Shown piece after piece: positions 52,687 to 55,402 of a stretch of 56,325 nt of DNA. Below the pieces are notes generated by a model. It ran no database searches. It saw nothing but the letters and a program-made list of their open reading frames with translations, and was not told where the DNA came from. Source of the stretch: an uncultured Elusimicrobiales bacterium (lineage in GTDB: Bacteria > Elusimicrobiota > Elusimicrobia > Elusimicrobiales > Elusimicrobiaceae); NCBI GenBank assembly GCA_944326725.1, contig CALVFA010000019.1, positions 1 through 56,325 on the forward strand. The letters run 5' to 3'. Both the position numbers and the translations under genes were made by a program. Position 1 is the first letter of the stretch. The number at the start of each line of letters is the position of its first letter.

Positions 52687-53270
52687 AGGCAGTTCTATTT
52701 TACTATTTTTTAGTATTCCGCCGGGATTTTGGAGCCTAGTCAAAGGTTTTGAGACTTTTTATCAGCTCTTTTCTCCTAATTGCAGCTAAGTTTGATTTTT
52801 CAGTAGCCTTGAAGCCCTCAATATACCCTATTTTTGTTTTAAAGCATTTTCCGCTAATGTCAAAAACCAATATAACTGAATATTTTGTGAAAATTAATTC
52901 CAATAAAAAACAGGGGGAAAAGAGGGGGAAATACTTTTATTTAAAAATACAAATTCGAACCTGATTTTGCAAAAAAATATTTTGGTTTTTCTTATCCTGT
53001 TTTTAACAAAAAACGACCCCAAATTACAAAATGTTAAAAAAATAAAGCCTGTTTTTGCTGTTTTTGAAAATAAAAAAATCATTACCAGTTTTTCGGACTC
53101 TGCAAAACAACCTCCAAAGAGCCATTTAAAGATACGCAAAAATCTAAGTCTTAATAGCATATTAGTATTTTTTAATCCTCTTTCAGGCCTGTTTTTTCAT
53201 ACGTCCGCTTATATTTTGAAAGGCAAAACTGCTGTTTTCTCGTCGGAGAAATAGACTTGTGCACAATTTG
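52687..53270. other. AT-rich non-coding region between mutY and the unknown DNA-binding gene
   Basis: About 580 bases clearly richer in A and T than the rest. Several short open frames exist on both strands but have poor composition, no ribosome binding sites and overlap each other. TTTTGCAAAAAAATATTTTGG near 52965 resembles palindromes found further right. Confidence 0.5.
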
Positions 53271-53335
53271 TGACATATGTTGACATATAATTGACATATA
53301 TTGACATATGTCAAAATATTTCTTATTATATGTCA
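53271..53335. promoter_or_regulatory. Phased TGACATAT operator array
   Basis: TGACATAT occurs at 53271, 53281, 53292 and 53302, spaced 10, 11 and 10 bases, so all four face the same side of the helix. The last forms the palindrome TGACATATGTCA (53302-53313), and an inverted ATATGTCA lies at 53328-53335. The array covers the -35 and -10 boxes of the next gene, which suggests a repressor binding cooperatively, perhaps the gene's own product. Confidence 0.75.
53301..53329 (+). promoter_or_regulatory. Promoter of the unknown DNA-binding gene
   Basis: TTGACA, 17 bases, TATTAT: one of the best matches to a housekeeping promoter in the window, embedded in the operator array. Expected transcription start is near 53336. 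Confidence 0.65.
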
Positions 53336-53387
53336 AAAGGCTGTGTAAATCCCGGTGGATAACCCTTTTAAAAGGAGATAAAATCTT

Positions 53388-54203
53388 ATGGCGTCTGATA
53401 TGGAAAACAAGGTCAAAATACGCTTTAAATTTCGCTCCGGAGAGGAGTTTGAAGCAGAAGGCAGCCCTGATTTTATTGAGAAACAGCGGGCGGACTTCCT
53501 GCATTTAATTGGAAAAGAAAAAAAGGCTCCTGCGTGCCCGCCCTCCACTTTTAATCACCCGCAATACACCCCAGCGGAAAGACCGCAGCCAACACCGGCA
53601 GCCCCAGGCCACACCTTATCCACCCAAACAGATGAAAGCTTTTCTTCCGCTCCGGCTGCCCTGCGAAGAGGCCATGAGTCAGCCTCGGCCCCGCTCCAGG
53701 CACAAGAAGTGCCGGACGGAGCCTTTCCAGCCCTCTCTCCGGCGCCGCATTTTGACAGCCCCAGCCGCACCGCTTCAGAAGGATACCACTCCTCTCATTT
53801 TGCATTTTCTCAGGGGCCAGAAAGGGTTTCTTCCCCGCAGAATAACTCTTTAGAGCAGGGGGACAACCTGCGCTGGTGGGAAGAAATTGCAAAAATAGAG
53901 AATGAACACGTCTTTTTACGCAAAAAAAGCCGCTTGCTTTCTCCCGAAACAGCCGCCCTGCTGTTAATCGGGGCGGCACAGAGCCTACTCAAAACTCCGC
54001 AATACAGTGCCTTGGCTCTGTCCAAGTCTTTAGCCAAATCCGGCTACGGAGGGGGGCGGTTGGACCGTATTTTGGGCGGAGAAATCAAAAGGGGGACTAT
54101 CCTGGCCTTTGGAAGTAAGCGATCCCGCGCTTACCGCCTGTCTGATGAAGGGTTTGCCAGGGCTTTTGTCTTGGCCGGGAAAATAGCCGAGGAGTGGCAT
54201 TAA
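53388..54203 (+). CDS. Unknown protein with winged-helix-like C-terminus
   Basis: A 271-residue protein I do not recognise. Residues 1-45 form a small charged beta-rich module (VKIRFKFRSGEEFEAEGSP). Residues 46-160 are a flexible P/S/A-rich linker. Residues 162-271 look folded: a WWEEI helix, LLIGAAQSLL, then ALSKSLAKSGYGGGRLDRIL resembling a helix-turn-helix and SRAYRLSDEGFARAF resembling the wing and last helix. This suggests a DNA-binding protein with a separate N-terminal interaction module. AAAGGAGA lies ten bases before the ATG. It is flanked by phased operator boxes upstream and iterons downstream, so regulator, replication initiator or partition protein are all possible. Confidence 0.6.
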   Translation: MASDMENKVKIRFKFRSGEEFEAEGSPDFIEKQRADFLHLIGKEKKAPACPPSTFNHPQYTPAERPQPTPAAPGHTLSTQTDESFSSAPAALRRGHESASAPLQAQEVPDGAFPALSPAPHFDSPSRTASEGYHSSHFAFSQGPERVSSPQNNSLEQGDNLRWWEEIAKIENEHVFLRKKSRLLSPETAALLLIGAAQSLLKTPQYSALALSKSLAKSGYGGGRLDRILGGEIKRGTILAFGSKRSRAYRLSDEGFARAFVLAGKIAEEWH

Positions 54204-54240
54204 TACTCCAATCCGCCCAAACCCCACACACCAATCCCTT

Positions 54241-54350
54241 TTTTACAGCCCAAATACCCTGAATTTGGGGGCCTATTTTACAGCCAAACACCCTGAGCTT
54301 GGTCCTATTTTACAGCCCAAACGCTCTGAACCAGGGCCCTATTAAGGGAT
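54241..54350. repeat. Three iteron-like direct repeats
   Basis: TTTTACAGCCCAAATACCCT at 54241, TTTTACAGCCAAACACCCTG at 54276 and TTTTACAGCCCAAACGCTCT at 54308, spaced 35 and 32 bases, each followed by a GG..CCTA end. They start 37 bases after the stop of the unknown gene. Confidence 0.8.
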
Positions 54351-54950
54351 CATTGCAAATTCTCTTTACTTGGGTCTCAAGAACATTCATTTAAAGTTAT
54401 GTCCAGCCAAAATGCACTTTCTAGAATATTCTTTTAGGCAAAGATTTTATATTTCCAAATAAACCAAAAAACTCACATCATATTTCCCCATTTTTATCAA
54501 TGCAAAATCGCACTTGTTTTTGCAAAATATTTTTCTGGACTAATAACAAATATTTTGTTTGGCAGAAAAAGGGAAAAAACAGATAAAAATAGAGCGCAGG
54601 GGGAGTATTTGTCAGATTAAAATAACTAACGATAATTTTTATTATGTTAACTTAATTGTAGATAAAATCAGATTTTAAACATCTATATTTAATATTATAT
54701 AAAATCTATTTTTGTTTAAATATTAATGATTTTTAAATAAAAAATATCAAAATACTTTAGATTTATTCTAGAAGCAAAAAAATGTTTTTTATCAACACAA
54801 CAAAATAGCAAAATATTTTGCAAACACTAAAATTTTGACCTGAAATTGATTACAAAAAGAGTTGAACTGGTTATAAAAAATATTATTGAAAACTGTAAAT
54901 TTTAGGTTGTTTTTGCAAAGAAAAACAAAGAGTTATCCTATTTATTAAAC
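54351..54950. other. AT-rich non-coding stretch
   Basis: Strongly AT-rich, no gene. It contains a perfect palindrome GCAAAATATTTTGC at 54808-54821 and close relatives at 54522-54535 and 54545-54557. Such easily melted DNA is typical of origins but is not proof. Confidence 0.5.
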
Positions 54951-55052
54951 GCAAAATTAGCTCTTTTTTTAAAATGCCCTAAAACATTTTCCCCCATATC
55001 CCAGTTACCCCCTTTTGGTCCTGGGGCATTTTAAAAAAGGCCTTAATTTTGC
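54951..55052. repeat. Long inverted repeat, 29-base arms
   Basis: The left arm (54951-54979, GCAAAATTAG... to ...AAAATGCCC) and the right arm (55024-55052, reverse complement GCAAAATTAAGG... to ...AAAATGCCC) match except for a few bases in the middle. The 44-base loop is rich in runs of C. Confidence 0.8.
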
Positions 55053-55208
55053 TTTTAGCTGTTTTTGCTACCACTATGGGCCGAACAGGGGTCTTTTATC
55101 TGCTAGATAGTTCTCCTATCCTTGTTTTAGTTTTATCTTAGGCTTAAACAATATGCCTTGAGAGTACGCTGTTGTCTTATTTGATATCAAGAGAAGGATA
55201 TTTTAGGG

Positions 55209-55402
55209 GATAGTATAAAGGCAGTTTGGGAGTATAGTATAGGTCGGACAATCTGCGGTGTGCCAGCAATTTGGGGTACTATAAGGCGGTTTGAGAATAT
55301 AGTATAGGAGATTTTTTGGGGGTATAGTATAAAAGGTGAAGTTTGCACACACTTTAGCTTGCAACGGTATAGTATAGGCGGTATTGAGGGTAGCATAAAA
55401 GG
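55209..55402. repeat. Seven-copy TATAGTATA box array
   Basis: Boxes of the form GGTATAGTATARRGG are centred at 55213, 55237, 55279, 55302, 55327, 55372 and 55393. The gaps of 24, 42, 23, 25, 45 and 21 bases are close to two or four helical turns, as if two boxes were missing. The core is a near-palindrome. The surrounding sequence has no gene. Confidence 0.82.

Follow-up and report, generated by a model that had tools for sequence, protein, structure and literature searches.

Linked sister chromosomes are separated at dif, and in model bacteria this recombination is not known to require more than XerCD, FtsK and a 28-bp site. Among other proteins of the terminus, MatP is a dedicated DNA-binding protein with many scattered matS sites, and RTP is a winged-helix protein. 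Both RTP and Tus control their own expression by means of a ter site in the promoter, and fork traps with a single ter site exist (PMC10331603). In one Elusimicrobia genome a dif site was predicted in 2011 (PMC3025954). Here we analyzed 56,325 nucleotides (hereafter the window) of contig CALVFA010000019.1 from an uncultured Elusimicrobiales bacterium (GCA_944326725.1), which carry a gene, X, beside dif. No description of X, its link to dif, its promoter array or the dif flank was found in the openly licensed PMC papers searched. Our preferred reading, to which we give a probability of roughly 0.45, is that X may be an autoregulated, locus-dedicated protein of the segregation terminus, acting in late segregation or dimer resolution.

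Architecture and distribution of gene X

The gene and its predicted domains are as follows.

53388 to 54203, + strand: gene X, an orphan winged-helix protein of 271 aa (open reading frame, ATG 53388 to stop 54203)
53412 to 53516, + strand: N-terminal beta-beta-alpha module, residues 9-43 (AlphaFold2, alignment)
53922 to 54200, + strand: C-terminal winged helix, residues 179-271 (AlphaFold2, fold comparison, alignment)

This frame is a real, conserved gene, because the window's protein as a query found a match in 55 of 61 genomes at E<=1, its own included, and a profile of X found one in 147 of 196 genomes of the class Elusimicrobia. At the level of the phylum the profile matched 175 of 340 genomes, and the genomes listed as matching were all from this class or closer to the window's own. 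In several families within the class X was not matched, and thus not all of the class needs it. When one conserved peptide pattern was run against 84,980 species genomes, 107 relatives were confirmed, of which 80 were kept; nearly all are labelled Elusimicrobia, Elusimicrobiales or Elusimicrobium, and the rest are unassigned bacteria. No relative was found in 72,556 plasmid records, 50,697 phage records or viral contigs. Since X is also chromosomal, single copy in its own genome and class-wide, it is a long-kept chromosomal gene, neither a phage repressor nor a current plasmid initiator.

An AlphaFold2 model built on 65 aligned relatives predicted the N-terminal module confidently (strands 9-14 and 20-25, helix 27-43), followed by a low-confidence, disordered linker and by a block at about 179-271 with pLDDT 89-98. 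This block has the winged-helix topology, with structure matches at Z 8.6-11.1. The N-terminal module is the most conserved part of X (G18 and E20 invariant, F21-G25 near-invariant among the aligned relatives), and the winged helix has invariant R224, D226, R227, G242, R245, Y249 and G255. The model therefore bears out the preliminary description, made from the letters alone, of an N-terminal beta module, a long linker and a winged-helix-like C-terminus.

With regard to family assignment, searches against Pfam, NCBIfam, PADLOC, PHROGs and PDB sequences yielded no curated family, only chance-level names (KAR9, PspA, CARF3 and phrog_4278), which we rejected; the gene had rightly been called an orphan without a clear match. 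Neither homology nor structure searches placed X in an enzyme family without a DNA-binding fold, the outcome that the preliminary description had named as speaking against its proposal. The fold neighbours of the winged helix include AF1382, the archaeal-virus F93 proteins of SSV1 and STIV, the plasmid protein pNOB8 AspA and many MarR/PadR regulators. The earlier likeness to initiators, partition proteins or phage repressors is thus kept in part: the centromere-binding AspA is among the neighbours (Z 9.5 over 81 residues, rmsd 2.6), whereas a phage or plasmid repressor or initiator is not supported by the distribution above. The fold shared with AspA is also shared by many regulators, which score alike; moreover, X differs from AspA in its added N-terminal module and linker, and no ParA/ParB-like partner gene was found among its conserved neighbours. 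The N-terminal module alone gave no confident match (best Foldseek E 1.4; best Z 4.2, to protein L). A detached FtsK-gamma was also considered and rejected, since hhalign, comparing the winged helix of X with the C-terminal ends of FtsK from these genomes, gave a probability of 0.1; the absence of FtsK-gamma among the fold matches listed carries no weight. FtsK-gamma (PF09397) itself was over the cut-off in 0 of 61 genomes and weak in 26; judging from sequence, FtsK of these genomes keeps its own diverged gamma-like end.

The gene had further been said to lie alone in repeat-rich DNA, and indeed about 640 bp separate it from mutY upstream, and downstream follow over 2 kb of AT-rich sequence in which no credible gene was seen. 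Directly past the stop of X, a 34-bp tandem repeat of 3.2 copies (CCTATTTTACAGCCC...) occupies 54237-54343 of the window, in an intrinsic-terminator-like region. The nearest neighbour genes vary by lineage: mutY is present in 33 of 47 loci of one set, and porin-like genes lie near X in 26 of 30 loci of the other. Type IV pilin-like genes adjoin the locus in several relatives (L021, L024, L025, L027).

Linkage of X to dif and the dif flank

X had been proposed as the centre of a module. Its partner in the module, absent from the preliminary description, is the chromosomal dif, and a conserved flank follows it.

54625 to 54652, + strand: dif, with an 11-bp XerC-type arm, a 6-bp centre and an 11-bp XerD-type arm (ACTAACGATAATTTTTATTATGTTAACT)
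54653 to 54776, + strand: conserved, AT-rich stretch flanking dif on its XerD-type side, with AGCA as its last letters (54773-54776)

The site lies 421 bp beyond the X stop and forms the core of downstream noncoding DNA that is conserved between species. It has the canonical 28-bp XerCD/dif layout of other bacteria and a single match in its own genome (control 0). The dif pattern with <=2 mismatches was found in 112 of 196 genomes of the class, again with no match of the reversed control.

Linkage was computed with 145 listed X positions. Both X and dif are carried by 108 genomes, on the same contig in 105 and on separate contigs in 3. In 102 of the 105, dif lies on the same strand, 45-2207 bp (median 240) downstream from the end of the X match. 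The exceptions are G108 (+12.0 kb) and G114 (+5.9 kb), and G144, where a dif with 2 mismatches lies on the opposite strand 35 kb from X. Close contact is therefore not obligatory, given the distances in G108 and G114. Four genomes have dif and no match to X; in three of them dif lies 38-787 bp from a contig end, on the side where X would be expected. In G076, dif and the flank are present and X was not detected, and this genome appears to be truly without X. Conversely, 37 genomes have X and no strict dif; among 14 inspected, dif is diverged in 11 (no more than a single substitution away from a looser pattern), weak in one and was not found in two. In an independent set, a dif-like site (<=4 mismatches) is present in 71 of 80 named loci, each time on the X strand. 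As for the other nine, the flank is shorter than 700 bp in five and the site reads N in one; L152, L157 and L186 have 1.6-6 kb of flank with no dif at <=4 mismatches.

Examination of the neighbours of homologues, which the preliminary description had recommended, thus showed that dif is kept beside X while the nearest genes differ between lineages. The linkage is a direct observation, and its persistence while near neighbours change is our main argument that the association is functional.

Compared with other XerCD/dif loci, this one differs in its linkage to X and in a conserved stretch of about 120 bp next to dif, in which a box keeps a fixed distance. The AGCA box lies 120-123 nt past dif in 45 of 59 named loci, and all of 13 further sequences, among them G108 and G076, have a similar looser box at 120-122 nt; the pattern was loosened stepwise from TWAGCA (26 of 60 loci) to AGCA and then to the looser box for these 13. 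A noncoding RNA was considered for the conserved element and dropped because the element proved to be dif with its flank; no Rfam match at the gathering threshold was found near X in 7 sources, and RNAalifold gave no consensus fold on either strand (33 gapless rows, energy 0.0). The near-constant length of the flank, together with the lack of an RNA consensus fold, suggests that the flank forms a DNA-protein complex of fixed geometry. Its binder may be a protein other than X, because G076 has the flank without a detected X. We do not claim that X binds there, as the flank also contains no copy of TGACATAT, the element of the X promoter described below.

Further to the right of dif, the window contains a 34-nt inverted repeat, 85 percent complementary (54946-54979 and 55024-55057), and in relatives a second conserved block occupies a comparable position. 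Several GTATAGTATAGG-like repeats occur in otherwise empty DNA at 55218-55390.

A promoter array private to X

Upstream of X, the following elements were read.

53271 to 53335, + strand: iteron/operator array with TGACATAT at 53271, 53281, 53292 and 53302 (+) (direct reading)
53306 and 53328, within the array: inverted TGACATAT copies (direct reading)
53301 to 53314, within the array: palindrome TTGACATATGTCAA (direct reading)
53301 to 53329, + strand: promoter-like TTGACA-17-TATTAT inside the array (11 of 12 matches, by consensus only)
53354 to 53362, - strand: degenerate DnaA-like box TTATCCACC (sequence)

The array is common to the X promoters of relatives. Among 77 loci, TGNCATA occurs upstream of X in 2 to 8 copies (median 4), and at least three copies are present in 70 of 77 X promoters versus 2 of 333 control promoters of the same loci. 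The 180 successive spacings fall mainly at 10-11 (76), 20-22 (30) and 29-32 bp (47), and as these are about 10.5 bp and its multiples, the sites share one helix face. In many loci of the window's family, a conserved CGTCKGAGAA-like motif lies about 20-30 bp upstream of the array (53241-53250 in the window).

The palindrome TTGACATATGTCA was found in 27 of 61 genus genomes searched, and all 27 places, matched by eye to X coordinates, are just upstream of X (control 0). In 400 kb of G034, 5 of 6 copies of TGACATAT are in the X promoter. In G108 only 4 of 14 are, so this single 8-mer is not exclusive everywhere, and no clear depletion of it elsewhere was seen against Markov expectation. Dispersed Ter or matS sites were also sought with the strict motif, and none was found in the 400-kb stretch of G034 or in the 61 genus genomes. 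Thus X resembles MatP in its probable dedication to the terminus and differs from it in having one cluster of putative sites, in its own promoter, in place of scattered ones.

Strict DnaA boxes are present in 24 of 77 X promoters versus 0 of 333 controls (none in the window), and relaxed ones in 44 of 77 versus 7 of 333. Their presence next to the array in many species suggests that expression of X may track the replication cycle.

The predicted -35 and -10 of the window promoter are overlapped by the array. X would probably repress its own promoter, with its winged helix binding the TGNCATAT array cooperatively along one face of the helix. All this could be expected of an ordinary autoregulated transcription factor with no role at dif, which stays near dif through synteny inertia or because a terminus position suits its expression (late replication, low dosage, DnaA-linked timing). 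Its MarR/PadR-like winged helix, the putative operator over its own promoter and the 12 kb between dif and X with its array in G108 would fit such a regulator. However, the exact palindrome TTGACATATGTCA is at no other promoter in the 61 genus genomes, and the linkage and strand are kept while near neighbours change. We regard an ordinary regulator as rather unlikely, and still as the explanation to be taken most seriously against a terminus protein.

The probable segregation terminus and the possible role of X

Polarity of KOPS-like motifs around dif was followed with GGGGGRA, picked from a ranking of 7- and 8-mers in G034, G030 and G108, in which GGGGGAA and GGGGGGA reverse strand at dif; the window and G046 are thus the only independent checks.

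52913 to 52930, + strand: last KOPS-like GGGGGRA motifs (52913, 52924) aimed at dif from the left
54989 to 54995, - strand: first KOPS-like motif aimed at dif from the right

A single switch fits 221 of 229 sites in G034 (between 218048 and 218795, with dif at 218342), 190 of 197 in G030 (0.6 kb from dif) and 107 of 114 in G108 (2.2 kb from dif). These counts are consistent, in all three, with a polarity switch of FtsK-orienting motifs at dif or no more than 2.2 kb from it, as marks dif in other bacteria. In the window, a switch between 52924 and 54989, bracketing dif, fits 29 of 32 sites; in G046 the signal is weaker (118 of 134), with the split 11-14 kb off dif. Such switching is rare among G-rich 7-mers (9 to 12 of 176 to 258). 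The E. coli KOPS, GGGNAGGG, was tried and did not switch clearly at dif in G034, G030 or G046; in G108 it did so in part. Of 61 genomes, 57 encode an FtsK motor scoring above the cut-off, and all 8 genomes examined for Xer recombinases have two strong ones. Together with its uniqueness, these features make dif look functional, and the switch at or near dif, FtsK and the two Xer proteins indicate that the X/dif locus is most likely the segregation terminus. In genomes searched for both, one of the two Xer matches has, about 8-15 kb away, a long open frame that contains a second DnaA-type ATPase domain (G000:C51:22368, G034:C3:26746, G108:C1:162924 and others).

The GC-skew maximum, taken inside 400-kb stretches, is 162 kb (G034), 191 kb (G030) and 104 kb (G108) from dif, roughly 6 to 12 percent of the genome in these three relatives. 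It lies on the X side of dif (G034:C1, G030:C7, G108:C1; loci L033-L072 and L257-L276). For Proteobacteria and Firmicutes, PMC3025954 puts one standard deviation of the dif-to-skew distance at 1.39 percent of genome length and reports none beyond 3 percent. In P. aeruginosa, replication and segregation end at different places, yet the skew switches at dif (PMC6199493).

A skew change at the window end and AT-rich repeats had first raised the suspicion of a replication origin. An origin was rejected because the gene lies within one skew arm in G034 and G030, and dnaA is near coordinate 1, opposite the locus, in G108. A related explanation takes X as a domesticated iteron-plasmid initiator, or a relic of an element once integrated at dif, and reads the array with its DnaA boxes as an origin, either former or cryptic. 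The combination of iterons, DnaA boxes and a winged-helix gene does resemble the origins of iteron Rep initiators (for X, by strict boxes at the 24 loci above), and Pfam Rep3_N was touched by 1 of 49 members, at the chance level of E=0.1. On the other hand, the locus is no skew minimum, dnaA of G108 lies elsewhere as noted, and plasmid, phage and viral relatives were not found in the records searched; we consider such a relic very improbable.

The skew bears most directly on a Tus/RTP-like fork trap of type I, with one ter site in the promoter of X, stopping forks near dif. In tus-TerB of E. coli and rtp-Ter of B. subtilis, the DNA-binding protein is encoded at the terminus beside its own site, with the site in the promoter, according to PMC10331603, which also supplies the precedents of autoregulation and single-ter traps. 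X is likewise at the terminus, has a predicted winged helix where RTP is a winged-helix protein, and carries a putative site in its own promoter, which the array overlaps. However, no sequence relation of X to Tus or RTP was found, sites with the strict motif are not dispersed, and the linkage is to dif itself. Moreover, the skew of the three genomes, an indirect sign of where forks meet, does not switch at X and does not place the end of replication at its sites; forks from dif over X appear to run on, because the maximum is 104-191 kb away. This makes a fork trap improbable, though a barrier to forks from the other side may still be present. Because neither the skew expected of fork traps nor scattered sites were found, we file X under neither fork traps nor MatP; by analogy, X would work most like the terminus proteins encoded at their own sites.

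We infer the role of X as a terminus protein as follows. Bound to its array, X would offer its N-terminal beta-beta-alpha module on the flexible linker to some partner close to dif, for which FtsK-XerCD is the most plausible candidate, and so may mark or license the dif region late in the cell cycle. What speaks most strongly against such a terminus protein is that X and its array are 12 kb from dif in G108, and that autoregulation alone would account for the array. A more elaborate form is possible, though we consider it doubtful: a dif-licensing module unlike the minimal 28-bp dif, in which X would nucleate on its own array as a 'terminus centromere', the DnaA boxes would couple its expression to replication, the XerD-side flank of about 120 bp, with its box at fixed spacing, would build a defined nucleoprotein complex with XerCD and FtsK, and the end of segregation would be uncoupled from the skew maximum by 100-190 kb.

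Finally, its place beside dif makes X a promising candidate for a new factor that helps chromosomes to separate in this little-studied class, and since a cultured Elusimicrobium exists, it is testable. The locus is also a case in which the probable end of segregation and the skew maximum lie apart. A gene kept beside dif through the divergence of the class, with a private array, should by its position point strongly to a factor of dimer resolution or terminus handling that is still missing.
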